The notes beneath the pieces were generated by a model. That model did no database searches. It had not been told where the DNA came from and was given only the letters and a program-made list of their open reading frames with translations. Shown here one piece after another: positions 5,252-56,925 of a stretch of DNA of 58,636 nucleotides. The translations under genes and the position numbers were made by a program. Numbering within the stretch: the stretch's first letter is position 1; the number at the start of each line of letters is the position of its first letter. This stretch comes from Bacillus sp. ISL-55 (lineage in GTDB: Bacteria > Bacillota > Bacilli > Bacillales > Cytobacillaceae): positions 1-58,636 of the forward strand of contig NZ_JAGGQU010000014.1 in assembly GCF_018613155.1 (NCBI RefSeq), read 5' to 3'.

Positions 5252-5680
5252 GCTTGTGACCGTGATAGGAGTGAGAGACAGTTTTCGGGCACAAGTTGTC
5301 TCTTCTTGTGACCGTGATTCGATAGAAAGGCAGATTTAGGGCACAAGTTGCCTCTTCTTGTGACCGTAATCCGATAGAAAGGCAGATTTGGGGCACAAGT
5401 TGCCTCTTCTTGTGACCGTAATCCGATAGAAAGACAGATTTCGGGCACAAGTTGCTTCATCTTGTGACCGTGAATTGATAGAAACGCAGATTTGGGGCAC
5501 AAGTTTTCTCTTCTTGTGACCGTGAATTGATAGAAAGGAAGATTTGGGGCACAAGTTTTCTCTTCTTGTGACCGTGAATCGATAGAAAGGCAGTTTTCGG
5601 GCACAAGTTGCCTCTTCTTGTGACCGTGAATCGATAGAAAGACAGTTTTCGGGCACAAGTTGAAACTTCTTGTGATTGTA
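5252..5680. repeat. Tandem array, 52-bp period, hairpin-forming (array 1)
   Basis: Nine copies of CTTGTGA start at exactly 5253 + 52n (n=0-8), and eight copies of GCACAAG at 5289 + 52n (n=0-7). In each unit GGGCACAAG and CTTGTGACC are inverted repeats around a 9-nt loop (TTGCCTCTT or similar). The rest of the unit is GTGAATCGATAGAAAGGCAG-like with scattered substitutions. The first unit is degenerate. The reading frames that cross this area are artefacts: 52 is not a multiple of three, so each unit shifts frame. The array fills the gap between the nadB promoter and nifS. There is no T-tract, so the hairpins are not ordinary terminators. Confidence 0.95.
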
Positions 5681-5743
5681 AGCCAAGAACAATTCAAATC
5701 TTCGAGTACAAGCAAGATATAAAAGTTGAACAGGAGCGAACCT

Positions 5744-6883
5744 ATGAAATATTTCGATTACGCGGCGACATGCCCGCTTGACCGGGAAGCGGCAGATATT
5801 TATATCCAGGCATCCACAAAGTACTTTGGGAATAGTCAAAGTCTCCATGAAGCTGGCAGTGCTTCTGCTAATCTTTTGGAGAGCTGCAGACAGGAATTTT
5901 CGCGCTTGCTTGGTGTTGATCAGGCGGGGATTTATTTTACAGGCGGAGGATCTGAAGCGAATTATCTTGGGATTATGGCGCTCCTCTCTGCCAAAAGAAA
6001 ACAAGGCAATCATATTATTACTGGGGGTGCTGAACATTCCTCCGTCTATAATTTGATGAAAAAGCTTGAAGGAGAAGGATGGGATATCACATACCTCCCA
6101 TTGAACGCAAATGGCAAAATTGAGCTTGCGAATTTCATCGAAGCTGTCCGACCTGAAACTGTGCTCGTTTCGATTCAGCATGGCAACCCAGAAGTCGGAA
6201 CAATCCAGCCAATCATCAAAATGGCTGATTATTGCCGCTCTAAAGATATACTGATTCACACGGACTGCGTGCAGACCTTCGGAAAAATTCCAGTTGCCCC
6301 GCTGGCCAGCTGTGTAGATGCCCTTTCGATTTCAGGGCATAAGTTTTACGGACCTAAAGGAACTGGAGCGGCATATGTAAATCCCAAGCTTGCCTGGAAA
6401 CCTTATATTGATGGAACTGTACATGAAAAAGGATTCAGGCCTGGCACGGTCAATGTCCCGGGAATCGCAGCGATGACCGCAGCAGCGCAAAAAGCACATT
6501 CTCTCATGGATACAGAAACGAAAAGAGTTAATAAACTGAGAGAGGCTCTTATCGATTCCCTTTCAGAAGTCAGGGAGTCAATCGGGATTTTTGGAACAGA
6601 GGGGGATGAACAGCTTCCAGGTATTTTGGGAATGGCGATAAAAGGACTCGAGGGACAATATGTCCTGCTTGAATGCAATCGCAATGGATTTGCGATTTCA
6701 ACCGGCACAGCTTGTCATACCGGCATGCTTTCACCTGCGAAGACCATGTCTGCAATGGGTATTAACGGCAAACCAGCAAAGGAATTTTTCAGAATTTCTT
6801 TCGGGAGGGAAACGCAGCAGGAAGATGCTGTCAATCTAGGGAAAATGCTTGCAGCAATCATCAAACAGGTCCCGGTCGTTTAA
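5744..6883 (+). CDS. nifS: NifS/IscS-type cysteine desulfurase linked to NAD synthesis
   Basis: This PLP enzyme takes sulfur from cysteine. Its place beside nadBCA suggests it builds or repairs the NadA Fe-S cluster, as proposed for B. subtilis nifS. The start MKYFDYAATCPLD at 5744 has AGGAG seven bases upstream; a TTG six codons earlier overlaps that site. The protein is 379 aa. SISGHKFYGPKGTG carries the PLP lysine, GAEHSSVYNLM the N-terminal PLP site, and STGTACHTGM the catalytic cysteine. It is divergent from nadB and followed by nadR 59 bp downstream, so nifS-nadR is a likely operon. Confidence 0.93.
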   Translation: MKYFDYAATCPLDREAADIYIQASTKYFGNSQSLHEAGSASANLLESCRQEFSRLLGVDQAGIYFTGGGSEANYLGIMALLSAKRKQGNHIITGGAEHSSVYNLMKKLEGEGWDITYLPLNANGKIELANFIEAVRPETVLVSIQHGNPEVGTIQPIIKMADYCRSKDILIHTDCVQTFGKIPVAPLASCVDALSISGHKFYGPKGTGAAYVNPKLAWKPYIDGTVHEKGFRPGTVNVPGIAAMTAAAQKAHSLMDTETKRVNKLREALIDSLSEVRESIGIFGTEGDEQLPGILGMAIKGLEGQYVLLECNRNGFAISTGTACHTGMLSPAKTMSAMGINGKPAKEFFRISFGRETQQEDAVNLGKMLAAIIKQVPVV

Positions 6884-6942
6884 CTTCAAGCTGATTTTAT
6901 GGTAAAATTCTCGAATGAAGAAGTCGAAGGAGAGATCGGAAT

Positions 6943-7482
6943 ATGAAGGAACCCACGAAAATTCTCGGAGATGAACGGCGGGCCTACATCCTGAAACGTC
7001 TGCAGGAAAGCAGTGAGCCTATAACCGGAGGCGAGCTTTCGGCGATAACGAATGTAAGCCGACAGGTCATTGTTGGCGATATTACCTTGCTTAAAGCCAA
7101 AAACGAACCAATCATTGCTACCAGCCAGGGATATCTATATATGCATGCATCACGTCCTTCAGCAGCGGAAAGAACCATTGCCGTCTCCCATGGCCCTGAA
7201 AGGACAGAAGAAGAACTCCTGCTTCTTGTCGATCACGGAGTAACCGTAAAAGACGTAAAGATTGAGCATCCTGTGTATGGGGATTTAACAGCTTCCATCA
7301 TGGTGTCCAATCGAAACGAAGTAAAACAATTCATGGAAAAAATCAGAGCCACCAAAGCTTCCTATTTATCAGAGTTAACGGACGGAATCCACTTGCACAC
7401 AATTTCTGCTCCGACGGAAAAAGCGCTGGATGCAGCAGAAGAAACGCTAAGAAAAGAAAAATTACTTATTGATTTAGAATAG
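6943..7482 (+). CDS. nadR: Transcriptional repressor of NAD biosynthesis (NiaR/YrxA family)
   Basis: The 179-aa protein has an N-terminal winged helix (about residues 10-65; ERRAYILKRLQESSEPITG, then SRQVIVGDI) and a C-terminal 3H domain named for three conserved histidines, here SHGPERTEEELLL, VKIEHPVYGDL and DGIHLHTI. The family senses nicotinic acid and represses nadBCA and nifS in B. subtilis. AAGGAG lies upstream of the ATG. It ends just before a bidirectional terminator shared with the convergent pheA. The symbol nadR here means the Bacillus repressor, not the unrelated enterobacterial NadR. Confidence 0.93.
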   Translation: MKEPTKILGDERRAYILKRLQESSEPITGGELSAITNVSRQVIVGDITLLKAKNEPIIATSQGYLYMHASRPSAAERTIAVSHGPERTEEELLLLVDHGVTVKDVKIEHPVYGDLTASIMVSNRNEVKQFMEKIRATKASYLSELTDGIHLHTISAPTEKALDAAEETLRKEKLLIDLE

Positions 7483-7487
7483 AAATC

Positions 7488-7520
7488 AAAAAAAATCCAT
7501 CACATATGATGGATTTTTTT
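7488..7520. terminator. Bidirectional terminator between nadR and pheA
   Basis: AAATCCATC and GATGGATTT form a stem with runs of A on the left and T on the right, so it can end transcription from both convergent units. Confidence 0.85.
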
Positions 7521-8361
7521 ATATCTTATAGCTCGAATAGCTTCCAAGCATTTTAACAGTGCAGCCTAATGCCTCCAGTTCAGCAATGGATCCTGGAATC
7601 AAAACATCATCCATTTTCAAATTAATATCGATAATGAAAAAGTATTTTCCCAACCCTGTTTTCATTGGGCGCGATTCAATTTTGGACAGATTGAGCTTCC
7701 GCCATGAGAAAGCAGATAAAACCTGGTGCAGTGCTCCTGCCCGATCCGAAGGCAGTGTAATCATCAAACTTGTCTTGGTCTCTTCGGTTGGAGCCATGTA
7801 AATGTCATGCCCTTCCTTCGCCAGCACAGCAAATACGGTATGGTTATAGCTGTAATCATGGACATTTTGCTCAGCCAGAGCTAAACCGTACTCCTCAGCT
7901 GCAAGGCTATTAGCGATTGCGGCGATGTTCCGGTCAGGATGGCTCTGTACATACCTAGCCGCTGCTGCTGTGGATGACATATGTTCAAGAGGAATTCCCT
8001 TGTATTCTTTATGTAAAAATTTATGGCACTGTGCTAGTGCATGTGGATGGCTGCAAATCAATTCAGCTTCCTTCCACTGTTCGATATGATTCCGATGAAC
8101 CAGCAGATGCTGCCTGATTGGCACCACCGCTTCCCCTACAATCTGGAGGTCTGTTTCATGGACTAAATAATCGATTGTGACATTTACTGAACCCTCGATG
8201 GAGTTTTCCAGCGGTACGATGGCTGCATCGATTTCTCCTGCTGAAGCAGCATCCATGCATTCTGGTATACTCACAAACGGAATTCTCTTAGCCTCTTTAA
8301 ACAATTGCCGGGCAGCATAGTCTGTAAATGTTGCTTCCGGTCCAAGATAACCAATATTCAA
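7519..8361 (-). CDS. pheA: Prephenate dehydratase
   Basis: PheA converts prephenate to phenylpyruvate in phenylalanine synthesis. NIGYLGPEATFTDYAA is the N-terminal family signature. Catalytic-domain motifs PLENSIEGSVN and SSTAAAARYV follow, then a C-terminal ACT domain (SLMITLPSDRAGALHQVLSA, then LSKIESRPMKTGLGKYFF, including the ESRP motif) for phenylalanine feedback. It is a stand-alone enzyme with no chorismate mutase domain. The start is uncertain: GGGGGAG directly abuts ATG at 8367 but is well spaced from TTG at 8361, which gives 280 aa. It lies downstream of pheB. Confidence 0.95.
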   Translation of the reverse strand: MNIGYLGPEATFTDYAARQLFKEAKRIPFVSIPECMDAASAGEIDAAIVPLENSIEGSVNVTIDYLVHETDLQIVGEAVVPIRQHLLVHRNHIEQWKEAELICSHPHALAQCHKFLHKEYKGIPLEHMSSTAAAARYVQSHPDRNIAAIANSLAAEEYGLALAEQNVHDYSYNHTVFAVLAKEGHDIYMAPTEETKTSLMITLPSDRAGALHQVLSAFSWRKLNLSKIESRPMKTGLGKYFFIIDINLKMDDVLIPGSIAELEALGCTVKMLGSYSSYKI

Positions 8362-8393
8362 GCTCATCTCCCCCTGCTACAAAACACTCTGTT

Positions 8394-8846
8394 TTAAGCA
8401 CCAGATCCAAGTACTTCAACTTTTTCTACGAATTCCAGTCTTTTCAGCCTTGCGAGCATCTCATCCATTTCGACTCTCATTTCGGTGACATTCAAGCTTA
8501 GCGTTACATTCGCCCTGCTTTGCAGAGGAATGGTCTGATGGATGGTCAGAACATTGCAGCCAGTAGCAGCAACCGTACTCAGCAGCTCAGAAAGCGTACC
8601 AGACCGATCTTCAAGCTGGAAAAACAGCGTAATGATCCTTTCCTTCACGATTGTATGGAAAGGAAAGACCGTATCACGGTACTTATAAAATGCACTCCGG
8701 CTCAAGTCAACCCTTTGCACTGCATCCCAGACCGACTCTGCTTTACCACGTTCGATCAATTCCTTTGCCTCGAGCGTTTTCTTCATCGCCTCAGGCAGGA
8801 CATCCTCACGAACAAGGTAAAACTTACTATCTTGATTTTGCTTCAT
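8394..8846 (-). CDS. pheB: ACT domain protein PheB
   Basis: This 150-aa protein matches B. subtilis PheB, a short protein paired with Phe[21 protein letters not shown] opens it, a helix-turn-helix-like [16 protein letters not shown] is in the middle, and a C-terminal ACT domain ([19 protein letters not shown]) runs to EVLGSGA. Its biochemical role is poorly defined. Sensing amino acids through the ACT domain is inferred. The start at ATG 8846 or GTG 8855 cannot be settled; GGTGGTGGAG lies just upstream of the ATG. Confidence 0.9.
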
Positions 8847-8981
8847 CTCCACCACCCCATCCGAATGCCAGCCTTTTTTTATTTTTACTTTTAAAAAGAA
8901 CCATTTCGTAAAACAACCATTTTTAAAGATGAAAGCCGATTAACCTGTGCTGGCTAATCGACCTTCTAAAATCATTTAAGC

Positions 8982-10274
8982 CTATTCCACGAATTCAAAT
9001 TCATATTCAAGCAGCTTGACTGTATCTCCATCCTTCGCGCCTCTTTCACGTAGAGCATCATCAATACCCATGCCGCGCATCTGGCGGGCGAACCTTTGGA
9101 CAGATTCATCCCTTGAGAAGTCAGTCATCTTGAACAGCCTTTCAATACTGTCACCCGAAATGACAAATGTTCCATCCGATTCGCGGGTAATCTGGAATTC
9201 CTGTTCTGCTTTTTCATGCTTGTACATCACGCGGTTTTCATCTTTTTCTAATTCCTCTTCTTCAATGAGAGGGAACTCCGGAGTCTTTTCAATCAGGTCA
9301 GCTACAGCGAACAATAATTCACGCAGACCTTCTCTAGTAACAGCTGAGATAGGGAAAACAGGGTGTTCGTCCCCGAGCTTTTCCTTGAACATTTTCAGAT
9401 TTTCTTCCGCCTCTGGCATGTCCATTTTATTGGCTACAATTACTTGCGGCCTCTCCGTCAGCCTCAAGTTATATTCTTTCAATTCATTGTTGATTGTTAA
9501 ATAATCCTCATAAGGATCGCGGCCTTCTGTGGCGGCCATGTCGATTACATGGATGATGACGCGTGTACGTTCGATATGGCGCAGGAATTGATGCCCAAGT
9601 CCTACACCTGAATGCGCACCTTCGATAAGACCTGGCAAGTCCGCAAGAACAAAGCTTCTGCCATCTTCTGTTTCAACCATACCGAGATTAGGAGCAATCG
9701 TCGTGAAGTGGTATTCCGCAATTTTCGGTCTGGCTGCTGAAACAACAGACAACAACGTAGATTTTCCTACGCTTGGGAAGCCTACCAGCCCTACATCCGC
9801 AAGAAGTTTCAATTCCATGATGATTTCTTTTTCTTGTCCTGGTTCACCTTTTTCAGAAAGCTCTGGTGCCGGGTTCGCCGGTGTTGCGAATCGTGAGTTG
9901 CCGCGTCCGCCGCGTCCGCCCTTCGCGATGACAGCCTTCTGGCCATGCTCTACCAGGTCAGCAATGATCGCGCCAGTCTCGGCATCGGAAACAATTGTCC
10001 CTGGTGGAACCTTTACGATCATATCCTTCGAATTTTTGCCATGCTGGTTTTTAGACATTCCGTGCTCGCCGCGCGGTGCCTTGAAGTGGCGCTGGTATCT
10101 GAAATCCATCAGCGTGCGCAGTCCCTCTTCCACCTGGAAGACTACATTTGCACCGTTACCGCCGTCGCCGCCAGCCGGACCACCCTTCGGAACATACTTT
10201 TCACGTCGGAACGCGACCATTCCATCGCCGCCGTCCCCGCCTTTTACATAAATCTTAACCTGATCGACAAACAT
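8982..10274 (-). CDS. obg: Obg family GTPase (50S assembly, sporulation and stress)
   Basis: The start [16 protein letters not shown] at 10274 has AGGTGGT upstream and gives 430 aa, as in B. subtilis; a longer frame upstream runs into spo0B and has no support. The glycine-rich Obg fold (residues 1-158) is followed by the G domain with G1 [13 protein letters not shown]3 [16 protein letters not shown] and G4 NKMD. A C-terminal OCT domain (about 350-430) follows. It acts on late 50S assembly and is needed for sporulation initiation. It follows spo0B by 47 bp in the same operon. Confidence 0.97.
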
Positions 10275-10321
10275 TATGTCATTACCACCTGTCTGAAATT
10301 TGTTATCGCTTCTATGTTTCC

Positions 10322-10861
10322 CTAGAGTGTTTCCAAGAAAACTTCTATCGTCCATTCCCCATCGACCACGCCATCCGACATTACTTTCATATTGTAACCC
10401 GGCTGCTCGTCTAGGAAACTTTTCAAGCGATTTTTATCATTTATTATTCCGCTAAAATCAAAAAAGAACCCGATTCCTTTCTCCTGCGGTTCAATTGTAA
10501 CGGAGAGATGATTTTCCTGATATGGTTCAATCGAAGAATTCAATGCATCAAAAAGCTGCTCTGTCCAGCGAGTCAACAACTGGTCATCTAATCTGTGGAA
10601 GTTTTGGGAGTCCATTACTTCATATTCCAATTGGAAATGATGATTCTCCCAATTGCAGGTTAACAATGTAGAGGCAAACTGAGGAAGATGTAAGTTAGAT
10701 AGCTTTGCATCCTGCCTGGCTTCCATGATAATTTCTTCAATGATCTCTTTAGCCCGGTCCACTTTATTCAGCGATAAATTCCCTTTAATTAGTTGAAGCT
10801 GATTCATCCAATCATGGCGTGCATGGCGCAAAACCTCGATTGTATCCCACTCTTTTTTCAT
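10322..10861 (-). CDS. spo0B: Sporulation initiation phosphotransferase Spo0B
   Basis: Spo0B passes phosphate from Spo0F-P to Spo0A. The N-terminal helical hairpin contains [19 protein letters not shown], where the His before D-W-M-N is the expected phosphorylated histidine. The C-terminal half resembles a degenerate histidine kinase ATP domain without nucleotide-binding motifs. The start [11 protein letters not shown] at 10861 has AGGAG seven bases upstream; the ATG two codons earlier is too close to it. Length 179 aa. It sits between rpmA and obg as in B. subtilis. Confidence 0.92.
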
Positions 10862-10989
10862 ACACACATACTCCTACTCATAAGACTACTTGGTGTAAGT
10901 ATAACAAAAAAGCCATTCTGCGTAAGCTAATTATGTATTTAAGTTAGTTGGATTTTTTTATCATGTCCATGAGACTAAAGCCATAAAAT

Positions 10990-11019
10990 ACAAGAAAACC
11001 CTAACCGCAGTGGTTAGGG
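10990..11019 (-). terminator. Terminator after rpmA
   Basis: On the minus strand CCCTAACC and GGTTAGGG form a stem followed by TTTTCTTG. It lies between rpmA and spo0B, so spo0B and obg probably depend on read-through or on a promoter at about 10870-10980. Confidence 0.75.
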
Positions 11020-11031
11020 CTTCTCTTTGGC

Positions 11032-11668
<637 letters not shown>

Positions 11669-11683
11669 GGTAATCCGCCTTAA

Positions 11684-11992
11684 TTAAGCGTTGATCTTTT
11701 CGATAACAACTTTAGTGTAAGGCTGACGATGACCTTGCTTCTTACGATTGTTCTTTTTCGCTTTGTACTTGAAAACGATGATTTTCTTTTGACGGCCATT
11801 CTTTTCAACTTTAGCTGTTACAGTTGCGCCTTCAACTACTGGGCTACCAACTTTAACGTTATCGCCACCTACAAAAAGAACCTTGTCAAAAGTTACAGTT
11901 TCGCCTTCAGCCGCGTTTAGCTTTTCAATGTAGATTGCTTGTCCTTCTTCTACCTTTACTTGCTTGCCGCCAGTTTCGATAATTGCGTACAT
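11684..11992 (-). CDS. rplU: 50S ribosomal protein L21
   Basis: The start [18 protein letters not shown] at 11992 follows GAGGAGG and gives 102 aa. An in-frame ATG 20 codons upstream lies within the leader and is not used by the family. The C-terminal [19 protein letters not shown] is the usual L21 tail, which binds 23S rRNA. It is first in the rplU-prp-rpmA operon. Confidence 0.98.
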
Positions 11993-12104
11993 TCCATTGC
12001 ACCTCCTCATTAGACTCAGACTCGCCAACCGCAGGCGTTTGCGTATTTGCAAAGCTTAGATACCTGAAGTGTGCGGTTGTAGCACGGGTGCTACAAACAA
12101 TAAC
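11993..12104 (-). ncRNA. L21 leader (ribosomal protein operon leader)
   Basis: This leader of about 110 nt lies between the rplU promoter and start. On the minus strand it contains the perfect hairpin TTGTAGCACCCGTGCTACAA and a second stem around CGCAAACGCCTGCGGTTGGCG near the ribosome binding site. This fits the conserved L21 leader of Bacillales, thought to mediate feedback on the operon. The match is from memory; a covariance search was not possible. Confidence 0.75.
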
Positions 12105-12110
12105 ATTAAA

Positions 12111-12140
12111 ATACTACCATATGTTTAACGAAAGTGTCAA
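12111..12140 (-). promoter_or_regulatory. Sigma-A promoter of rplU operon
   Basis: On the minus strand TTGACA (12140-12135) is followed after 18 bp by TAGTAT (12116-12111), placing the start of transcription at about 12104, just before the leader hairpins. Confidence 0.75.
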
Positions 12141-12177
12141 CATAATAATCGATGTTCTTTTAATGGCCAGCTTTGGT

Positions 12178-13632
12178 TCAACTCAATTCTGTCGAAGCAC
12201 CAACCTTAAGAATTTCATAAAAAGGTTTCCCCGCGTCTGACACTGAGAATTGTATCTTAAAGCCTAACGCTTTTTCAAGCCTCAATTTATGGATATCAGC
12301 CTCACCGGAAAAAGTGATTATGACCTCCTTCGTCGCGGTTACATGAATTTCTTCATAATCGGAGTTTTTGTACTCCCACAGAGCACGCTCGAGTCTGTAT
12401 GCGACGGATTCCGCGCTCAGCACCTCTCCTGTACCTCCGCATGTCCAGCATTTCTGAGTCAGAGTCTCGGCCAGCGACTGCTTCGTCTTCTTTCTTGTCA
12501 ACTGAAGGATGCCAAGCTCGGTAAAGCCGATGATCCGTGTCCTGCGCTCATCCTGGTGCAGTTCTTTTTGTATCGTTTCCAGCACATTGTTCCGTTCACT
12601 ATCAGTCTTCATATCAATAAAGTCGATCAGTATGATGCCGGCAAGATCCCTGAGTCTGATCTGCCTTGCCGCTTCAACTGCCGCATTCATGTTCGTTTTC
12701 ATGACAGTGTCACGCAAGTTAGTTTTACCGGAAAACTTGCCTGTGTTCACATCAATCATCGTAAGTGCCTCTCCCTGGTCAATGACCATATAAGCTCCTT
12801 TTTCCAGCCAAACGATCCTTTTAAGCAGCCGCTCGATTTCCGTTTCGATTTTATAAAAGGAAAAAATTTGATCTTTCCCATTATAAAACTCTATCTCTAT
12901 ACCTTCTGTGATATGATGCTGCATTCTTTTCTTAAAATCGAGGCAATCCGTAATCACTTCTCCCTTTGTAAAAGAAGAAAGTGCTGCCACAGCCTGCTCA
13001 AAAAAATAATCGCGGCTGTGAACAATTCCAGGCTTCTTCATTCCCGACATGGTCTTTTTCAATTGAGTGTATTGAAGGCGCTGCTGCTCAAGCTCACGCA
13101 TGATTGCTTCCTCGGTCTGGCTCAGACTTTCGGTTCTGAAAATGAGACCTTCCTCGGGCGTTTTGACCTCGCTGGCGAATTCTCTCCACTTATTTCTGAC
13201 CTCTGGTGATTCTGCCTTTTTAGAAACAGCTATGTATTTTCCCTGGGGCATATAGACAAGATTCTCACCCTGTAATTCAATGACTCCCGTCAGCCTCGCT
13301 CCTTTTGTACCAGCGGCATCCTTTTCAACCTGGACCAGCAGCTTTTCTCCTTGATGGACATACGAAGAGATCGAGCGATTTGCTTTATTTTCGTCGTCAG
13401 ACTGGACATAGGATGCCAGCTTATCTTTTTGGAGAAAACCGCTTAATTCTTCGCCGAAATTGATGAACGCTGCGTTCATCCCTGGAATCACTTTTTCAAC
13501 GGTGCCAAGATAAATATTCCCGACCAGTGATTGTTGGCCAGGCTGTTCAATATATATTTTTTCGACTTCGCCATTTTTGACCAAAGCGAAGCGTTTCTCT
13601 CTTGAATTTGCATTGATAATTAACTGGTTCAT
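12178..13632 (-). CDS. rng: Ribonuclease E/G family protein
   Basis: This 484-aa endoribonuclease begins MNQLIINANSREKRFALV. An S1-like domain lies near the N-terminus (GNIYLGTVEKVIPGMNAAFI). The metal-binding aspartates of the family are in TMIDVNTGKFSG and IILIDFIDM. A zinc-link motif is CWTCGGTGEV. B. subtilis lacks this family and uses RNase Y, but several other Bacillaceae have it at this position. It lacks the long E. coli RNase E scaffold tail. It is a separate unit between the rplU promoter and the spoIVF terminator, with a dispersed repeat in its upstream region. Confidence 0.92.
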   Translation of the reverse strand: MNQLIINANSREKRFALVKNGEVEKIYIEQPGQQSLVGNIYLGTVEKVIPGMNAAFINFGEELSGFLQKDKLASYVQSDDENKANRSISSYVHQGEKLLVQVEKDAAGTKGARLTGVIELQGENLVYMPQGKYIAVSKKAESPEVRNKWREFASEVKTPEEGLIFRTESLSQTEEAIMRELEQQRLQYTQLKKTMSGMKKPGIVHSRDYFFEQAVAALSSFTKGEVITDCLDFKKRMQHHITEGIEIEFYNGKDQIFSFYKIETEIERLLKRIVWLEKGAYMVIDQGEALTMIDVNTGKFSGKTNLRDTVMKTNMNAAVEAARQIRLRDLAGIILIDFIDMKTDSERNNVLETIQKELHQDERRTRIIGFTELGILQLTRKKTKQSLAETLTQKCWTCGGTGEVLSAESVAYRLERALWEYKNSDYEEIHVTATKEVIITFSGEADIHKLRLEKALGFKIQFSVSDAGKPFYEILKVGASTELS

Positions 13633-13656
13633 TATTTCTCCTTAACCTCTAGAAAT

Positions 13657-13773
13657 GCGCAAGCGCCTTGATCAGCCCCGACAAGCGCTGGAGGGCCGAC
13701 CAGTGAAGTCGCTCTTTGACTTCATTGGGCGGACCGAAGCGACCTCGAGGGGCTAGGCGCTGGAGCTAGACAC
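13657..13773 (+). repeat. Dispersed ~117-bp repeat, copy A
   Basis: Starts GCGCAAGCGCCTTGATCAGC and ends AGGCGCTGGAGCTAGACA. AGCGCCT...AGCCCC at the left and GGGGCTAGGCGCT at the right are imperfect terminal inverted repeats. An inner GAAGTC..GACTTC hairpin is also present. It is nearly identical to copy C (40391-40507). It lies upstream of rng, downstream of the spoIVF terminator. No coding potential. Confidence 0.9.
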
Positions 13774-13810
13774 TAATCTTAGTGCAAAAAGATTAATACT
13801 TATAAAGTAA

Positions 13811-13852
13811 TAAAAAAAAATGCAGCGCAAAGAGTGTCTGCGCTGCTTTTAT
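13811..13852 (-). terminator. Terminator of spoIVFA-spoIVFB
   Basis: On the minus strand GCAGCGC and GCGCTGC form a stem around an 11-nt loop, followed by a run of nine T. Confidence 0.85.
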
Positions 13853-40545: not shown

Positions 40546-40800
40546 AAAAAACTCCATTCGCCATAAAAGGACGAATGGAGTTTGTTCGCGGTACCACCTT
40601 TTTTCCCAGCAACGGTAAAAACTGAGTTCTGCTGCTGGCTCAAATACGGATAACGGCTCTTCACCGTCGCCTGTTACTGGGAGTATTCCGTTCCCAGGCG
40701 ATGCTCAAGGGCGACCTTCCATGGTTCCTGCTTAGAAGTCCTCTCAGCTACTGGACTTCCTCTCTTCAAGCTGGCTGCTCATGTACTCTTCCCTGTCTAA
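40546..40800 (-). promoter_or_regulatory. T-box riboswitch leader of valS
   Basis: On the minus strand AAGGTGGTACCGCG (40600-40587) is the conserved T-box sequence that pairs with the tRNA acceptor end. It is followed by a strong terminator, AAACTCCATTCG/CGAATGGAGTTT with a T run (40583-40546). Stem I occupies about 40795-40700, and begins near AGAGTACATGAG (AGTA box-like). A GTC at 40715-40713, in GGAAGGTCGCCC, is a candidate valine specifier. Uncharged tRNA-Val would favour the antiterminator. The right boundary is approximate. Confidence 0.92.
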
Positions 40801-40986
40801 GCTTTGCTTTATAGTGTTTTTGTATATTAGTTATACTACCCAAAAAAGGGGATTGACGTCAATCATCATTTCCTACTTTTTATTATTTTATACTTCTTCC
40901 GCCTTCTTGTGCGAACATTTAGCACATTTTGGGCCAATTAGTCATAGAATGAAAACAGGGATACCTGATTGTTTGGAGGGATGGCG

Positions 40987-43716: not shown

Positions 43717-44380
43717 ATTAGTTCGGACAAAGTTTAGAGATTTGATTGCCTTTTTGTCCGAACCTAGGGCTACTTCGAACAAAGTTCAGAGATTTCGACG
43801 GCCTTTTGTCCGAACCCGGGGCTACTTCGGACAAAGTTCAAGGATTACGGCGGCCTTTTGTCCGAACCTGGGGCTACTTCAGACAAAGTTTAGAGATTTT
43901 GATCGCCTTTTGTCCGAACCCAAGGCTACTTTGGACAAAGTTTAGAGATTACAGATGCTTTTTGTCCGAACTTTGGGCTACTTCAGACAAAGTTCAGGGA
44001 TTTCGACGGTCTTTTGTCCGAACCAAAGGCTACTTCAAACAAAGTTTAGAGATTTCGATCGCCTTTTGTCCGAACCCAGGGCTACTTCAGACAAAGTTCA
44101 GGGATTTCGACGGCCTTTTCTCCGAACCGAACCCGGGGGTACTTCAGACATAGTTCAAGGTTTTCGAAGGCCTTTTGTCTTAACCAAGGGCTACTTCAGA
44201 CAAAGTTTCAGAATTTCGACGGCCTTTTGTCCAAACCCGGGGCTACTTCGGACAAAGTTCAGGGATTTCGACGGCCTTTTGTCCGAACCTGGGGCTACTT
44301 CAGACAAAGTTTAGAGATTTCCATCGCCTTTTGTCCGAACCCGGGCTGTTTCAGACAAAGTTAAAAAAAATGACCTTGTT
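43717..44380. repeat. Tandem array, 52-bp period, hairpin-forming (array 2)
   Basis: Thirteen copies of a GGACAAAG-like core begin at 43725, 43777, 43829, 43881, 43933, 43985, 44037, 44089, 44146, 44198, 44250, 44302 and 44353. Spacing is 52 bp except one of 57 (a 5-bp duplication near 44128) and one of 51. In each unit TTCGGACAAAG and CTTTTGTCCGAA are inverted repeats with a loop of about 18 nt. The linker is CCCGGGGCTAC-like. Frames crossing it are artefacts because 52 is not divisible by three. The array fills the gap between spoVID and the hemL terminator. Confidence 0.95.
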
Positions 44381-44407: not shown

Positions 44408-44437
44408 AAAAAAACACTCCCCAAATGGAGAGTGTTC
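44408..44437 (-). terminator. Terminator of the hem operon
   Basis: On the minus strand AACACTC and GAGTGTT form a stem followed by seven T, just after the hemL stop. Confidence 0.85.
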
Positions 44438-48488: not shown

Positions 48489-48500
48489 GACAGCCTCCTA

Positions 48501-49334: not shown

Positions 49335-49348
49335 GGACACTACCTCTC

Positions 49349-50695
49349 TTACGGCTGAAAAGAAGCCTGAGGCGAAGGAACTTTTACCTGCTTGGTTTCA
49401 GCCATTTTCATTCCTTCTTCTTCAGCGACGAGCTGTTCAATATTGAAAATCTTCACGAATAGATTCAATGCTTCATCTGCATCAGGGCCAGCCGCAAGCT
49501 CCTTCGCCTGCAAAATTGGATCTTTCAGGAGCTGGTTGATGATGCTCTTTGTATGTTTGTTAAGAACTTTAATATCACGATCAGATAGATGAGGCAGTTT
49601 CCGTTCAATACTGTTCATCGTTTCCTGCTGGATAGAAAGGGCCTTGACCCTCAAAGCAGAAATGACCGGAACAACGCCAAGCGTATTCAGCCACTGTTTG
49701 AATTGGACAATTTCACTTTCAATCATGATAAGAATCTTCTCAGCTGCCTTCTGTCGTTCCTGCAGATTTGCTTCAACAATGCCCTCTAGATCATCGATAT
49801 CATATAGGAATACATTTTCAAGCGTCGCAATCTCCGGATCAAGATCACGGGGAACAGCGATATCCACCATGAATAATGGTTTTCCTTTTCGCTTTTGCTC
49901 GACCTTTGCCATCATATCCTTTGTGACGACAAAGTCCTTCGCACCGGTTGAACTGATCAGGATATCTGCATCCACAAGCGCAGTCTGGAGCTCATCCAAA
50001 GTTTTGGCCATGCCGGAAAAACGATTAGCTAAATCTTCAGCTTTCTGGTAAGTACGGTTGATGACTGTTACTTTCTTTGCTCCATTAGCATGAAGGTTCT
50101 GGATGGCCAGCTCGCCCATCTTGCCTGCACCGAGAATCAGCACATGCTTTTGATCAAGAGAGCCGAAAATCTTCTTGGCAAGTTCAACAGCTGCGTAGCT
50201 GACAGAGACAGCGTTCGCTCCGATATCTGTTTCGGAATGGCCGCGTTTGGCAATAGTGACTGCCTGCTTGAACAGCTGGTTGAAGACCGTTCCGGTAGTG
50301 TTCTTTTCAAGGCCAAGCATGAAGCTTGAACGCACTTGACCAAGGATTTGAGTTTCACCCAGCACCATGGAGTTCAAGCCGCAAGATACCTTGAATAAAT
50401 GTTCAATTGCCCCATCTTGTTCATAGATGAACAGGAACGGCGTAAATTCTGCCTGAGGGATCCCGAACCATTCAGATAAAAATTCTTTGATATAATATCT
50501 GCCTGTGTGAAGCTGGTCCACAACAGCATATATTTCTGTACGGTTGCAAGTTGATACGATGACATTCTCAAGGATGCTCTTCTTTTCCTGAAGGGCACTC
50601 ATCGCTTCACCAAGGTTTCCCTCGTTGAATGTCAATCTTTCGCGGATTTCGACAGGGGCAGTTTTATAGTTTAGACCGACAACGATAATATGCAT
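49349..50695 (-). CDS. hemA: Glutamyl-tRNA reductase
   Basis: HemA reduces glutamyl-tRNA to glutamate-1-semialdehyde, the committed step. The start [19 protein letters not shown] at 50695 has GGGGGTG upstream and gives 448 aa. The catalytic cysteine is in [14 protein letters not shown], the NADPH-binding loop in [14 protein letters not shown]. First gene of hemAXCDBL, divergent from ysxD. Confidence 0.97.
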
Positions 50696-50741
50696 TATGA
50701 ATTGACACCCCCACATAGAAATTGCATAATTGGCTAAGGCA

Positions 50742-50788
50742 ATTATACACGACGTTTTTTACCTTTTGATGTTGTAAATGTGAACAAC
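50742..50788 (-). promoter_or_regulatory. hemA promoter with upstream inverted repeat
   Basis: On the minus strand a perfect TATAAT (50747-50742) precedes hemA by about 45 bp, with ATCAAA 17 bp upstream as a weak -35. Directly upstream is GTTGTAAATGTGAACAAC (50771-50788, inverted repeat of 5 bp arms), which could bind a regulator. It is not a good match to PerR or Rex boxes known to me. Confidence 0.5.
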
Positions 50789-50953
50789 TGTTGAAAAAAC
50801 ATATATATAATAGCATTGATTAAATTGAACTATTTCGTCTGTCTGTTTGTTATACTTTTATACTATATCAAAAGCAAATAAACATACTCCCTAATGTACC
50901 TTATCAAAGTTTGTCCCTTAATTCAAGTGAGCCTTTCTGGAAGTGGTGAAAGA

Positions 50954-51439
50954 ATGAAAAATCAGAGAATTATACCAGGAATGATCTTAATCGGATTTGG
51001 AATTTATTTTTATCTTCAGCAGGAAAATGTTTCGTTGTTCAATGAATTTTATACGTGGCCGACACTCTTGATCATTGTCGGGGCTGCCTTTTTATTTCAA
51101 GGATACTGGGGCAAGGATTATGAAGCCATCTTTCCAGGTGTGATCCTCGTTGGCTTCGGTTTCCACTTTCATGTGGTCAATAAATTCGACCTCTGGCCCG
51201 ACCACCTTGGTGCTTTCATCTTAATCATCGCTCTCGGCTTCTTACTGCGATACCAGAAAACAGGCAATGGCTTGTTTCACGGAGTCCTCTTTCTCATTTT
51301 AGCAGGGTTGCTTCTGTTTTATGACAGAATCACTGGATGGCTTGGTTTATTGGAAAACGGAGTTTCGGCAGCATGGAGATTTTGGCCGGCAGCATTGATA
51401 CTCATTGGTGTTTACCTTTTGTTTATTAAAAGGAAGTAG
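50954..51439 (+). CDS. ysxD: Putative membrane protein YsxD-like
   Basis: A 161-aa protein starting MKNQRIIPGMILIGFGIYF at 50954, with AGTGGTGA upstream; 20 extra codons upstream have no site. Six short hydrophobic stretches appear as paired repeats (PGMILIGFGIYFYL, PGVILVGFGFHFHV, WPAALILIGVYLLF), like the LiaF N-terminal transmembrane domain. It ends IKRK. The name comes mainly from its position between engB and hemA, where B. subtilis has ysxD. The function is unknown. Confidence 0.72.
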   Translation: MKNQRIIPGMILIGFGIYFYLQQENVSLFNEFYTWPTLLIIVGAAFLFQGYWGKDYEAIFPGVILVGFGFHFHVVNKFDLWPDHLGAFILIIALGFLLRYQKTGNGLFHGVLFLILAGLLLFYDRITGWLGLLENGVSAAWRFWPAALILIGVYLLFIKRK

Positions 51440-51505
51440 AAAATTGGCCAGGCTCAGGAGCGTGAAATCAATCTTAGACTTTCAAAAGTGAACACACAAT
51501 AAAGT

Positions 51506-51548
51506 AAAAAACCCGCACCGTGATCGATCTCGGTGCGGGTTTCTTATT
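51506..51548. terminator. Bidirectional terminator between ysxD and engB
   Basis: CCCGCACCG and CGGTGCGGG form a stem with A run on the left and TTTCTTATT on the right, serving the convergent genes. Confidence 0.85.
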
Positions 51549-51556
51549 ATACACGA

Positions 51557-52141
51557 TTATTTCATGAAACTTCCTAAAACTGACCAGGCTTTGTCTTTCC
51601 CTTCTCCTGTTTCTGATGAGAAAAGAATGATCGTATCGTCCGGATCCAAATCAAGGGTTTCTTTTGTAATCTTCAAGTGTTTTTGCCACTTTGACTTTGG
51701 AATTTTATCCGCTTTAGTCGCGATAATGATGACTGGAATCTCGTAATGCTTGAGGAAATCATACATCATCACATCGTCTTTTGAAGGCGGGTGCCTCAGG
51801 TCAACAATCAGCAGCATTGCTTTCAATTGTTCTCGCGAAGTTATATAGGTTTCAATCATCTTGCCCCAGGCTTCACGTTCGGATTTTGATACTTTAGCGT
51901 AGCCGTAACCCGGTACATCTACAAAATGAAGCATTTCATTGATCAGGTAAAAATTCAATGTCTGAGTCTTTCCTGGCTTCGAGGATGTCCTGGCAAGGCT
52001 TTTCCGGTTAAGCATTTTATTGATAAAAGAAGATTTACCAACATTCGACCGGCCTGCAAGGGCGAATTCCGGAAGATTAGTTTCCGGATATTGATTCGGC
52101 CTTACAGCACTGATCACGATTTCTGCACTATTTACTTTCAT
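51557..52141 (-). CDS. engB: Ribosome biogenesis GTPase EngB (YsxC)
   Basis: A 194-aa GTPase acting in 50S assembly. G1 is [14 protein letters not shown]2 [10 protein letters not shown]3 [12 protein letters not shown]4 ATKADK and G5 FSSETGEG. Its start ATG overlaps the lonA stop (ATGA), so the two are coupled. Confidence 0.97.
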
Positions 52142-54465
52142 TGAGAATCACCGCTGGCGAGAGCGTGCTTCAATACTTCATCTAAATGAGAAACTAACAC
52201 AAATTCAAGCTCCTTACGTACACTTTCTGGAATATCATCAATATCTTTTTCATTATCCTTTGGACAAATAACCTTTGTTAGACCTGCTCTGTGAGCGCTC
52301 AACGATTTTTCCTTGAGACCGCCAATTGGCAGAACCCTTCCTCTTAATGTTATTTCTCCTGTCATTCCTACTTCCCTGCGGATCGGCCTTCCTGATAAAG
52401 CCGATACAAGTGCAGTAGCAATCGTAATACCCGCTGAAGGACCATCTTTCGGCACGGCACCTTCTGGAACGTGGATGTGAATATCATTCTTTTCATGGAA
52501 GTCCGGATCAATGTCCAGTTCCTTCGCCTTTGAACGCACATAGCTGAAGGCAGCCTGGGCAGATTCCTTCATGACATCCCCAAGCTTACCAGTCAGGACA
52601 AGCTTGCCTTTTCCTGGTGACAGGGAAACTTCAATTTGGAGGGTATCGCCACCGACGGTTGTATAAGCGAGTCCAGTGGCAACGCCTATCTGGTCTTCCA
52701 ACTCAGCCTGCCCATATCTGAACTTAGTCTTTCCAAGGAAGTCCTCAACGTTCTTCTCACTGACGATCACACGCTTTTTGTCACCGGAAACAACGATTTT
52801 CGCTGTTTTCCTGCAGATGGATGCAAGCTGCCTCTCAAGGGATCTCACACCAGATTCCCGAGTATAATAACGAATTACCTTCGTTATCGCTTCATCCTTC
52901 ATTTGAAGCTGTGATTTTGACAGACCATGGTCCTTGATTTGTCTTGGAAGGAGATGGTCCTTGGCAATGTGCAGCTTTTCCTGTTCTGTATAGCCTGCAA
53001 TATTGATGATCTCCATCCTGTCGAGCAATGGGCCAGGTACAGTTGAAAGATTATTGGCAGTAGCAATGAACATTACTTTTGAAAGGTCATACGGCTCTTC
53101 AATGTAATGGTCGCTGAAATTATGGTTTTGTTCGGGATCAAGTACCTCCAGCATCGCTGAAGAAGGATCTCCGCGGAAATCATTGGACATTTTATCGATT
53201 TCATCAAGAAGGAAAACAGGGTTAATCGTTCCTGCCTTTTTCATCCCCTGGATGACCCTTCCTGGCATAGCACCGACATAAGTCCTTCTGTGGCCGCGAA
53301 TTTCTGACTCATCACGGACACCGCCTAAAGACACCCTTACAAAATTACGGTTGAGGGATTTAGCGATCGACCTGGCCAAGCTCGTTTTACCGACTCCCGG
53401 AGGTCCAGCCAGACAAAGGATTGGGCCTTTTAATGAGTTCGTCAGCTTCTGGACAGCAAGATACTCTAGAACCCTTTCCTTTACTTTTTCCAGCCCGTAA
53501 TGGTCCTTATCAAGAATCTTTTCAGCTTTGCTGATATCAAGATCATCCTCTGTCGACTTTGACCAAGGCAAAGCAACAAGCCATTCAATATAATTGCGGA
53601 TTACTGCGCTTTCTGCAGAAGTCGTCGGCACCTTCTCGTAGCGGTCAAGTTCCTTCATTGCAGTTTCCTTCACATGTTCAGGCATTCCGGCAAGCTCGAT
53701 TTTTTCGGTAAGCTCAGCAATTTCTCCTGTCTTCCCTTCCTTTTCACCTAGCTCCTTCTGGATAGCCTTCATCTGTTCACGTAAATAATATTCCTTCTGA
53801 GTCCGCTCCATGGAACGCTTTACACGCTGTCCAATCTTTTTCTCAAGACCCAGAACTTCTTTTTCATTATGGATGATTTCTATAACACGATTCATCCGGT
53901 CCTTGATATCAATCGTCTCGAGAATCTCCTGCTTCTCTTTGAGTTTTAGCGGAAGATGGGAAGCGATGATATCAGCCATCCTGCCCGGCTCTTCAATATC
54001 AGAAACAGATGCATACGTTTCCGCAGAAATTTTCTTGGACATTTTTATGTATTGTTCGAAATACTCAAGCATTGTCCTCATTAAAGCTTCATCTTCGACA
54101 TCCTTTAATTCCTCATCTTCGAAGGTTCTTACTTTACAGGAATAATGGTCATTTTCATCAAAAAGTTCAATGATTTCAGCTCTGGACAATCCTTCAACCA
54201 ACACGCGGATCGTTCCGTTAGGGAGCTTCAGCATTTGTTTGACGCGAGTCAATGTACCCATCTGGTACAAATCCTCCTCGCCTGGTTCATCTATGGATAT
54301 ATCCTTTTGGGTTGTAAGATAGATTAAATGGTCATCCACCATTGCCTTCTCCAATGCCTGTACCGATTTTTCCCGTCCTACATCCAAATGCAGAACCATT
54401 GTCGGGTACACAAGCAAACCGCGCAGCGGCAGAAGTGGGACAGTGTGCTCATTCTTATTCGCCAT
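52138..54465 (-). CDS. lonA: ATP-dependent protease La (LonA)
   Basis: The 775-aa protease has an N-terminal LAN domain ([16 protein letters not shown]), a coiled-coil helical region, the AAA+ module (Walker [17 protein letters not shown], Walker [11 protein letters not shown]) and the protease domain with catalytic Ser in [14 protein letters not shown] and Lys in [21 protein letters not shown] lies seven bases before the ATG. It degrades misfolded and regulatory proteins. Paired with lonB upstream, as in B. subtilis. Confidence 0.98.
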
Positions 54466-54501
54466 GACATTGCACCTCCAACATGCATTGTATCAAACCA
54501 T

Positions 54502-54517
54502 AAGTATAATTATACTT
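54502..54517. promoter_or_regulatory. Perfect palindrome upstream of lonA
   Basis: AAGTATAATTATACTT is a perfect 16-bp palindrome about 37 bp before the lonA start. It contains a TATAAT on each strand. Closer to the gene TTTGATACAATGC (54492-54487 holds TACAAT) is another possible -10, but it would start transcription within the ribosome binding site. It does not match the CtsR heptad repeat or CIRCE. The rest of 54466-54823 holds only the lonB terminator. Confidence 0.5.
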
Positions 54518-54786
54518 TGTTGTTCAATTCTATCGTATTTATTTTCAAGTGTCTAATAACAAGAGCAGTTAGCACCGTTTTGCCTCATTGATTAGTATCC
54601 TGATATTCATGTAAAAATATGTCCATATCTGAAGTTACTTTGAAAACCAAACATAAGCTTATTTTTTTTAGAAAACAGCAATTTCAGTCCGGGTATCTTC
54701 ATTACACCCTATTTCCTTTTTTATGGAAAAATAAACCCGTTTTTACTGTTTGGTTAACCTCTAGGCGAAACAGCAGCAAAACAGCG

Positions 54787-54816
54787 TAAAAAAAGAACGC
54801 CGGAAAGCGTTCTTTT
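54787..54816 (-). terminator. Terminator of lonB
   Basis: On the minus strand AAAGAACGC and GCGTTCTTT form a stem around TTTCCG, followed by a run of T. Confidence 0.85.
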
Positions 54817-54823
54817 TATCATT

Positions 54824-56491
54824 CTAGCTCGTCTCTTTTGCCGTTAAGTCACTGGCAGCCTTGATGATTTGCTCCCTCGGATGGTCTTTTTCAAGAGCTA
54901 TTTCAAACACTTCATTCAGGTGTGTGACTGGAATGATTTCTATATCTGTGATTTCATTAAGGATGGTCTGCACATTTTCCTGCGGAATGATTACCTTTTT
55001 GGCACCTGCTTTTTTCGCTGCCTTTACTTTTGGATAAACACCGCCAATCGGCTTTACATTTCCATGGATGCTGATTTCTCCAGTCATTGCGACAGTATGG
55101 TCCATCGGGATTTTATAGATTGCTGAATAAATCCCCGTCGCCATTGCGATTCCGGCAGATGGCCCATCGATTGGAGTACCGCCAGGGAAATTGACATGGA
55201 TGTCGAATTCATCAGCTGGAACACCCATCGATCTTAGAACAGTGATGACATTTTCAATTGAACCTCTTGCCATACTCTTTCTCCGTATGGATTTTCCCTG
55301 TCCGCCGATGCTTTCTTCATCGACGATGCCAGTGATATTGATCGAGCCTTTATCCTTCGCTTTAATTACAGTCACTTCGATTTCAAGAAGCGCACCCGTA
55401 TTTGGACCATACACAGCCAGTCCATTGACAAGACCGACCGTTGACTTTTCATTGATCCTTCTTTCCATCCTTGGTGTCAGCTGGCTCGAATGGACGACCC
55501 ATTCAATTTCCTCTTCTTTAATGTAGGTTCGTTCGTCAGTAATCGCCAGTCCAGCTGCAATCTGGACCATATTAACGGCTTCGCGGCCATTTCGTGCATA
55601 ATTTGACAGGATTCTAATTGCCTTTTCACTCATAGTCAGTTCTACTTTTTCAGCTGCATTCCTTGCTACTTCTGAAATTTCCTCCTGAGTTAACTCGCGG
55701 AAAAATACTTCCATGCACCTCGACCTGATTGCTGGAGGGATTTCGCTTGGAGTTCTTGTCGTCGCGCCAACAAGGCGGAAGTCTGCCGGGAGCCCATTTT
55801 TGAAGATGTCGTGGATATGGCTCGGGATTTGCGTGTTTTCCTCGTTATAATACGCACTCTCTAAAAATACTTTCCTGTCTTCCAGTACTTTTAAAAGCTT
55901 GTTCATTTGGATTGGGTGAAGCTCACCAATTTCATCAATGAATAAAACCCCACCATGGGCATTGGTAACGGCACCTTGTTTCGGCTGAGGAATGCCAGCC
56001 TGGCCCATAGCACCAGCCCCTTGATAAATCGGATCATGAACAGAACCGATCAACGGATCAGCAATTCCTCTCTCATCAAACCTGGCAGTTGTAGCATCCA
56101 GCTCAACAAATACTGAAGACTTTTTGAAGGGGGATTTTTGGTTTTGCTTCGCTTCTTCCAACACAAGTCTGGCCGCAGCAGTTTTTCCTACTCCCGGTGG
56201 CCCATAAATGATGACATGCTGTGGATTGGGTCCACATAACGCTGCTTTAAGAGCCTTGATTCCATCTTCCTGTCCGACGATGTCCTTGAAGCTCGATGGC
56301 CTGACTTTTTCGGCAAGCGGTTCACTAAGGGAGACTGATCTCATCTTTCTTAACTGTTCCATTTCCTTTCGGGATTCCCGATCAATTGATACTTTTTGCG
56401 TGCGCTGATTCCTGAGTAAATTCCAGAAATACAGCCCGATGATGATTCCGAAAAACAGCTGTATAAACAAGGCGATTCCGGTCCAACTCAA
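54824..56491 (-). CDS. lonB: Membrane-anchored Lon-type protease LonB
   Basis: The 555-aa protein has an N-terminal membrane helix (about 5-24, IALFIQLFFGIIIGLYFW), the AAA+ domain (Walker [16 protein letters not shown], Walker B GVLFIDEIGELHPIQ) and a Lon protease domain with catalytic Ser in GTPIDGPSAGIAMATG and Lys in YPKVKAAKKAG. The N-terminal LAN domain of LonA is missing, as in B. subtilis LonB, which is made in the forespore under sigma-F/sigma-G. The start at TTG 56491 follows GGGAGGG. Its own terminator indicates a separate unit from lonA. Confidence 0.94.
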   Translation of the reverse strand: MSWTGIALFIQLFFGIIIGLYFWNLLRNQRTQKVSIDRESRKEMEQLRKMRSVSLSEPLAEKVRPSSFKDIVGQEDGIKALKAALCGPNPQHVIIYGPPGVGKTAAARLVLEEAKQNQKSPFKKSSVFVELDATTARFDERGIADPLIGSVHDPIYQGAGAMGQAGIPQPKQGAVTNAHGGVLFIDEIGELHPIQMNKLLKVLEDRKVFLESAYYNEENTQIPSHIHDIFKNGLPADFRLVGATTRTPSEIPPAIRSRCMEVFFRELTQEEISEVARNAAEKVELTMSEKAIRILSNYARNGREAVNMVQIAAGLAITDERTYIKEEEIEWVVHSSQLTPRMERRINEKSTVGLVNGLAVYGPNTGALLEIEVTVIKAKDKGSINITGIVDEESIGGQGKSIRRKSMARGSIENVITVLRSMGVPADEFDIHVNFPGGTPIDGPSAGIAMATGIYSAIYKIPMDHTVAMTGEISIHGNVKPIGGVYPKVKAAKKAGAKKVIIPQENVQTILNEITDIEIIPVTHLNEVFEIALEKDHPREQIIKAASDLTAKETS

Positions 56492-56654
56492 TTTACATTC
56501 CCTCCCGTAAGTTGATACTATTTGGCTTTAACCTAGTATCCCCCTGAGACTGTTGGAATAAACAATATTTTCAAGTGAATTTTTCCACCCGGAGAGACCT
56601 TAGTATGGCAGGATATTACGAGTTTTTCGTCAAGAATGAATAAAGGATTTTCTG

Positions 56655-56925
56655 GTTCCGACAGCTTTTCCTCTTTTACCGCTGAACCCTGTCTGAAGTT
56701 TGATCTTGTTCTGACAGCTTTTCCTCTTCCACCACCAAACCTGTCTGAAGTTGACCCTAGTTCGGACAGCTTTTTCTCTTCCAATACCAAACCTGTCTGA
56801 AGTTGCCCTTACTTCTGACAGCTTTCCTCCTACAACACCAAACCTGTCCGAAGTTGGACCTAGTTCGGACAGCTTTTCCTTTTCCAACATCAAACCTGTC
56901 CGAAGTTTGCTCTGCTTCTACATAA
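56655..56925. repeat. Tandem array, ~52-bp period, hairpin-forming (array 3)
   Basis: Five copies of GACAGC occur at 56660, 56713, 56765, 56817 and 56868 (spacing 53, 52, 52, 51). Each unit has TTCGGACAG and CTGTCCGAA (or CTGTCTGAA) as inverted repeats. Two foldings are possible: across CTTTTCCTCTTCCAACACC or across the shorter GTTGGACCTA. The array lies between the clpX terminator and lonB, so it forms most of the lonB upstream region. Reading frames here are artefacts. Confidence 0.93.

Follow-up and report, generated by a model that had tools for sequence, protein, structure and literature searches.

Tandem arrays of a 52-bp, five-turn unit between genes of Bacillus sp. ISL-55 as candidate architectural elements of the chromosome

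We analysed a 58,636-nt stretch of the Bacillus sp. ISL-55 genome (contig NZ_JAGGQU010000014.1, positions 1 to 58,636; hereafter the window), which holds three tandem arrays of 52-bp units. We give about an even chance to the reading that these arrays, and the genome-wide class to which they belong, are DNA-level architectural elements carrying phased binding or wrapping sites for a predicted dimeric protein. The units occur almost exclusively in arrays, keep a fixed spacing and conserved half-sites, share a common helical phase and change in copy number in place; the protein, the wrapping and the purpose are what we infer. Because length, phase and half-sites are properties of the duplex, the arrays would act as DNA. 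We prefer to read the length rule in terms of complete helical turns, of which 52 bp would make five.

In the proposed mechanism, each unit would comprise five helical turns and two inverted, sequence-specific half-sites, alternately 33 and 19 bp apart, and AT-rich and GC-rich stretches alternating in helix phase would allow the whole array to bend smoothly or wrap. The half-sites are most likely recognised by a dimeric DNA-binding protein that occupies adjacent units cooperatively and would wrap or stiffen the DNA separating transcription units. The simplest such partner would be a sequence-specific dimer able to wrap or bend the array. Likely uses would be topological insulation, a sink for supercoils (with gyrase) or chromosome organisation.

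A common unit frame with conserved half-sites

Tandem arrays were called with Tandem Repeats Finder (TRF), and unit consensuses were derived with TRF and a simple aligner. The three period-52 arrays reported in the initial annotation were recovered as follows.

5253..5675: array 1, 8.1 units of 52 bp (TRF); half-sites CTTGTGACC, loop, GGGCACAAG, with core GACC-N25-GGGC (consensus)
43722..44362: array 2, 12.2 units of 52 bp, plus a 156-bp higher-order repeat (TRF)
56655..56919: array 3, 4.9 units of 52 bp at 56655-56907, and a 103-bp form reaching 56919 (TRF)

The description of the three as unrelated in sequence held only in part. Arrays 2 and 3 have the half-sites TTCNGACA/TGTCNGAA in common and differ in their loops; by consensus, most units of array 2 read TTC[AG]GACA-N25-TGTCCGAA, and array 3 reads TTCNGACAG, loop, CTGTCNGAA. 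Array 1 does have other half-sites, containing GTGACC and GGGCAC, which lie at the same unit positions as those of arrays 2 and 3 (core, 25 bp, core). As a DNA query against its own genome, array 1 gave eight matches apart from itself, of which the strongest had E 0.49; a near copy is therefore absent there.

The distance from left to right arm was 33 bp in 77/81 pairs, and that from right to left arm was 19 bp in 77/80. The core pattern GACM-N25-KGKC was present in 25 of 34 array consensuses from this genome and in 15 of 28 from relatives; the next commonest core distance, 37, was found in five and seven, respectively. A single frame of half-site, N25 and half-site fits 50 of 66 consensuses when four further core variants, picked after looking, are admitted. 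The fitting set comprises 27 arrays of this genome, 19 from 14 loci of relatives and four from genomes G081 and G088 (G denotes a genome and L a stretch or locus).

In the 44 arrays of at least 200 bp, mismatch to the array's own consensus was 1.5 and 1.7% in the two half-site cores, about 5% in the flanking six positions, 6.9% at the loop edges, 12.7% in the loop middle and 13.7% in the spacer; one position within the half-site is free, with 11-14% mismatch. The tips of the half-sites vary between arrays yet stay complementary within an array: among 23 arrays with distinct tips, complementarity at the five positions outward of the core was 70-91%, against 24-44% when arrays were mixed. Inward of the core, only the first position was high (70% vs 30%). 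Tips that differ and remain complementary are expected of a symmetric dimer, and the pattern looks like symmetric protein half-sites more than a stem.

Helical phasing of AT and GC content

Excess AT/GC power at 10.4 bp in the unit consensuses reached z 6.2 in the 23 arrays with distinct tips and z 7.1 in 16 others, relative to shuffles that preserve composition only. Among the other harmonics (k = 1-11), only k = 8 attained z of at least 2 (2.0, in the 16-array set). The excess persisted when the cores were masked (z 4.2). With whole half-sites masked in 37 arrays less than 60% identical, it was z 7.6, and the phases agreed (coherent sum 1.37 vs a null of 0.15 ± 0.08); arrays from a shared site in related species cannot be counted as independent, a dependence that the 60% identity filter only lessens. 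In the same 37 arrays, the null was also exceeded by k = 7 (z 3.2) and by the coherent sums at k = 2, 6, 7 and 8, a result expected of a common non-sinusoidal profile. AT content, 0.78 at the loop centre, fell to 0.32 at a distance of 5 bp, rose to 0.88 at 10 bp, and was 0.81 at 20 bp and 0.22 at 26 bp. Mean power at the 10.4-bp harmonic was 2.61 for the 66 array consensuses, 1.23 for 2086 non-array intergenic windows and 1.03 for 13181 coding windows.

A second class of intergenic arrays has 20-21-bp units, often as 40-42-bp pairs (e.g. TTTATTGGCGAAAAT, TTTTAAGGAATATA), many of them strongly phased in AT/GC at 10 bp. It was seen at the following loci.

This genome: L130:10256-10370, L133:16339-16452, L144:6200-6291, L152:13101-13193, L156:15115-15206
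Elsewhere: the hemL gap of L044 and L046; L075, L083, L106

Among 11 intergenic arrays of 38-42 bp in relatives, ten had power 4.2 to 8.1 at k = 4 and one 0.96, values given without a shuffle null. Their mean power was 5.8 at k = 4 and low at k = 2 (1.27) and k = 6 (1.97); many such units consist of two paired 20-21-bp repeats, an arrangement that favours even harmonics. Genome G444 has the arms TTCGGACA/TGTCCGAA in one array of period 63 (L194:5841-6229), or six turns, with gaps of 35 and 12 bp. Its power at k = 6 was 2.74, yet k = 9 reached 2.78, and this six-turn case, a single array, may be a coincidence.

Genome-wide abundance and position relative to genes

The annotation had also proposed a repeat class under a strict length rule, and this was borne out genome-wide. 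Exact 12-mers in 450 kb of the genome recurred 1410 times at lag 52, 1021 times at 104, 706 times at 156 and 282 times at 53, whereas the best lag not near a multiple of 52-53 scored 21. The pattern TTCNGACA, gap, TGTCNGAA, gap, TTCNGACA had 297 matches per strand in the whole genome, and its reversed control had none. A survey of 849 kb (40 stretches plus the window) yielded 34 arrays of period 51-53 (28 of period 52, five of 53 and one of 51) with 2 to 14 units, a count in which adjoining arrays are taken apart and TRF calls of 103-105, 156 or 261 bp are included. Higher-order repeats of 104, 156 and 261 bp were seen. The first 20 stretches held 18 of the 34 arrays, occupying 5,817 of 391,800 bases (about 1.5%), and extrapolation from them gives roughly 200 arrays per genome. 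Since these stretches held 18 pattern matches against 25.7 at the genome average, the estimate is not inflated by their choice.

Spread of single units, one of the two routes that had been proposed, was not supported: in the 849 kb, 76 units of the form TTCNGACA-N25-TGTCNGAA lay inside arrays and one outside. With up to two mismatches allowed, nine lay outside, vs six in the reversed control. At L129:10755-11315, L147:6321-7256 and L149:8257-9073, adjoining arrays switch loop or half-site family and their ends overlap, as if recombined.

The intergenic status of the arrays is partly by construction, because our crude caller of open reading frames (ORFs) dropped those more than half covered by an array; even so, an ORF covered the middle of two of the 34 arrays and an ORF end was overlapped by about 40 bp in one. 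The 52-bp unit is not a multiple of three. Merging gave 28 array loci with genes on both sides, 16 of them between codirectional, nine between convergent and three between divergent genes. Relative to gap length, convergent gaps were enriched (9/28, expected share 0.16, one-sided p 0.026) and divergent gaps depleted (3/28, expected 0.28, one-sided p 0.030), both p values uncorrected. Twelve of the 16 codirectional arrays start 61-124 bp past the upstream stop codon; the other four start at 18, 46, 589 and 683 bp.

Copy number changes at shared sites

The proposed amplification in place was supported at the nadB site of array 1. Repeated units were present there in 12 of 19 loci, as counted with a regular expression that takes most units twice. 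Copy number ranged from about 18 units in L198 to two to four in L201, and five loci (L200, L209-L212) had a gap of only 91-141 bp. Because the site is shared and the unit number varies among relatives, copy number changes in place while sites persist.

Among the ten closest relatives, the hemL gap of array 2 held a 52-bp array in five and the clpX gap of array 3 in six, with similar or the same half-sites and other loops. In the remaining gaps there was a 20-bp array, some other element, roughly 1.3 units of a 53-bp family, or nothing. In the hemL gap of L041 and L046, an element of a few hundred bases with the ends CTGTTGATT/AATCAACAG replaces the 52-bp array. The 53-bp family, whose arms are GTACCCTTATG/CATAAGGGTAC and which carries short T runs, was seen in L126, L127, L133, L134 and L146 and in the hemL gap of L047, where its 1.3 units adjoin the hemL terminator and resemble the tail of that terminator.

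The nearest named relatives of the HemA-region protein of the window were in Mesobacillus and Bacillus sp. records. Two records, L043 and L076, are titled Chryseobacterium sp. ISL-80 and Pseudomonas sp. ISL-84; the titles look wrong, because the encoded proteins are 95% and 80% identical, respectively, to the query protein of the window.

Distribution among relatives

The TTCNGACA pattern was found in 89 of 193 genomes of the family, in 13 of 25 genera and in 19 of 21 genomes of the genus, with one control match in all, and in eight of 398 genomes drawn from the class, three of them of the same genus (one control match). The two genus members that lack it, G081 and G088, carry, in 360 kb, four period-52 arrays whose half-sites are different. 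TRF, applied to 80 loci of relatives (1.58 Mb), called 68 arrays of at least 90 bp, 47 of them with no ORF over the middle. Period 51-53 was seen in 26 of the 47, spread over 22 genomes, and in seven of the 21 set aside for an ORF over the middle, at least two of which were of the TTCNGACA type. Stretches of 20 genomes from other families (343 kb, with four of the contigs shorter than 20 kb) yielded one clear 52-bp array (G542) and one poor 53-bp row (G230). Genomes G328, G339, G360 and G533 (160 kb) gave one array, in G533. We conclude that the array class is dense in this genus and its close neighbours and sparse outside them.

As for plasmid or phage origin, blastn with array 2 matched none of 72,556 plasmids and none of 50,697 phage records. 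Eight stretches of the viral collection match a loose pattern with spans of 61-80, one of them of 61, and none has the 60-base span of the 52-bp unit.

Neighbouring genes and signals in the window

By NCBIfam assignment, array 1 lies in a divergent gap between nadB (minus strand) and an IscS/NifS-type cysteine desulfurase gene (plus strand), array 2 between hemL and spoVID and array 3 between clpX and lonB, these four all on the minus strand. Pattern scans placed the following predicted signals beside the arrays.

44412..44437, minus strand: terminator-like hairpin of hemL, adjoining array 2 and preceding it in the direction of transcription
56961..56990, minus strand: terminator-like hairpin of clpX, adjoining array 3 and preceding it in the direction of transcription
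5166..5195, plus strand: promoter-like site upstream of array 1

Near array 2 the scan found one terminator-like hairpin vs 1.1 in shuffles, which is weak on its own, and near array 3 two vs 0.5, being both strands of one hairpin. By eye, a hairpin and T run follow hemL, and likewise clpX, in the ten relatives compared. Promoter-like sites upstream of array 1 numbered three vs 1.2 in shuffles, and the bases adjoining the site at 5166..5195 are conserved in the nadB-site relatives compared.

No Rfam family matched the arrays at the gathering score; the only matches in the window were a T-box leader (40564-40808, minus strand) and an L21 leader (12008-12088, minus strand). Tandem repeats of 45, 36, 33, 24, 21 and 12 bp, all multiples of three, overlap ORFs at 4-271 and 782-980.

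Alternative explanations and the weight of the evidence

A rather unlikely alternative, though a serious one, is that the arrays attract gyrase as a counterpart of BIME-2 of Escherichia coli: the phased AT/GC content would wrap around the C-terminal domain of GyrA, the arrays would absorb supercoils near gene ends, and the half-sites would have a different role or be left over from the origin of arrays. The GC content flanking the E. coli gyrase motif is periodic at 10.75 bp, the GyrA C-terminal domain is believed to wrap fragments of 35-52 bp (PMC6379681), and BIME-2 is enriched in gyrase sites (PMC6379681; PMC12393610). The phased GC of that motif and the gyrase sites in BIME-2 make gyrase an alternative or a second partner; our arrays are phased in the same manner, and the starts past stop codons, the convergent enrichment and the divergent depletion suit a place near gene ends. 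However, gyrase sites are degenerate whereas the half-site cores are nearly invariant within arrays, the TTCNGACA pattern is common to 13 genera, and the period here is 10.4 rather than 10.75 bp. A neutral satellite, in which slippage and unequal crossing-over change length, gene conversion keeps units alike and 52 bp is simply inherited with no protein, is in our view unlikely. It would account for the copy-number changes at the nadB site, the higher-order repeats, and the adjoining arrays with different loops or half-sites in L129, L147 and L149; but homogenisation should affect all columns alike, and the cores vary about eight times less than the loops. It also leaves unexplained the single core distance in arrays with unrelated loops and the common AT/GC phase in loops less than 60% identical.

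Tandem hairpins or terminators acting as RNA in the transcripts of flanking genes are very unlikely, even though the units contain inverted repeats, array 1 holds three terminator-like hairpins in the pattern scan vs 0.5 in shuffles and, by eye, stems of the 53-bp family are followed by short T runs. The fold constraint once supposed for the arrays found no support at the RNA level. In eight codirectional arrays with TTCNGACA arms, the sense strand had G-U mispairs in three and A-C in three, one was fully paired and array 3 was mixed with a single A-C, so there is no sense-strand G-U bias; nor is the variable arm base compensated, being complementary between arms in 36 of 81 units where about 40 are expected by hand calculation if the arms were independent. 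Moreover, each of arrays 2 and 3 is preceded by a terminator-like hairpin belonging to the upstream gene, and 10.4-bp phasing is a duplex property. The most improbable explanation is a mobile palindromic repeat, of REP/RAYT or MITE type, spreading units through the genome. Hundreds of palindromic units per genome and the presence of a Y1 transposase domain in 18 of the 21 genus members would suit it, but G085 and G089, with 202 and 238 forward matches, have no Y1 match (PF01797, a search that does not separate RAYT from other Y1 transposases), units hardly occur outside arrays, loops differ between loci, and sites are common to several species.

Several observations weigh against wrapping by a dedicated dimer. 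Sixteen of the 66 consensuses fall outside the common frame, among them the 53-bp family, whose arms are about half a unit apart, the 51-bp arrays and array 3, in which the unit caller set the cores one base off; in G542 the core distance is 27 (hand count). With cores masked, k = 7 also rises (z 3.1). Several half-site families coexist within one genome and would need several paralogous proteins or proteins of relaxed specificity. A boundary role is not general, as the four codirectional arrays outside 61-124 bp and the three divergent ones show, and array 1 may lie in the leader of the desulfurase gene if the predicted promoter at 5166..5195 drives that gene. Twelve stretches from 12 other genomes of the family (217 kb) were free of arrays of period 51-53, so the density of the class is much lower there. 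Finally, the binding factor proposed in the initial annotation still seems likely to us, but no shared gene was obvious around nine array sites in sparse genomes, where ORF lists of about 12 kb each were compared by eye. For the replication of their own that the annotation offered as the other option, we saw no evidence, though no test was aimed at it.

As a tentative and on balance unlikely extension, the arrays could be a bacterial counterpart of phased satellite chromatin, in which a predicted family of sequence-specific wrapping proteins would coat the roughly 200 intergenic arrays of a genome. Units would be whole turns (20-21, 40-42, 52 or 63 bp), each protein lineage would have its own half-site, and half-sites would turn over while the wrapping geometry was kept. 

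If the main reading, of DNA-level architectural elements, is right, about 1.5% of the genome would lie in helically phased arrays that call for a binding partner, a habit shared by relatives; the half-sites would be bait for a new nucleoid or topology system in Gram-positive bacteria; and bacterial intergenic tandem repeats, often taken as neutral markers, could be under measurable physical constraint.

Comparison with known systems

To our knowledge, the half-sites fit neither Spo0A, SpoIIID, PurR nor other Bacillus regulators. The initial annotation knew of no described family that fits, and we found no description of such arrays in the open-access literature searched; nor was a named motif for TTCNGACA evident there, the matches looking unrelated. 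Plasmid iterons and partition-site arrays are tandem binding sites whose spacing is often in whole helical turns; unlike them, the arrays here number, by extrapolation, about 200 per chromosome, and no replication or partition gene was noticed beside the sites viewed. Nucleosome-favouring DNA is also helically phased. Eukaryotic satellite DNA likewise has tandem units with higher-order repeats (PMC8122249), but the present arrays are short, lie in many intergenic gaps and have strictly conserved half-sites.

CRISPR arrays have identical repeats with unique spacers and accompanying cas genes; here the units are contiguous, loops are alike within an array and the six flanking genes are nadB, the desulfurase gene, hemL, spoVID, clpX and lonB. 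MITE copies or transposon ends are marked by target-site duplications at new loci and by related inner sequence; the loops here vary from locus to locus, and several species have the sites in common. BOX and RUP of pneumococcus are also small repeats of a Gram-positive bacterium but are described as interspersed (PMC3049150). The RepRanger paper (PMC12306157) includes B. subtilis; its main text uses neither 'tandem' nor 'spacing'. REP sequences are scattered as single or paired units and linked to a RAYT-type Y1 transposase; here, units were almost confined to arrays, and G085 and G089 are rich in matches without PF01797. The closest functional analogue would be the gyrase-binding BIME-2, which similarly has clustered palindromic units in intergenic DNA and in which phased GC content goes with gyrase wrapping (PMC6379681). 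It differs from the units described here, which are strictly tandem, measure 52 bp or five turns, hardly ever occur singly and carry locus-specific loops.

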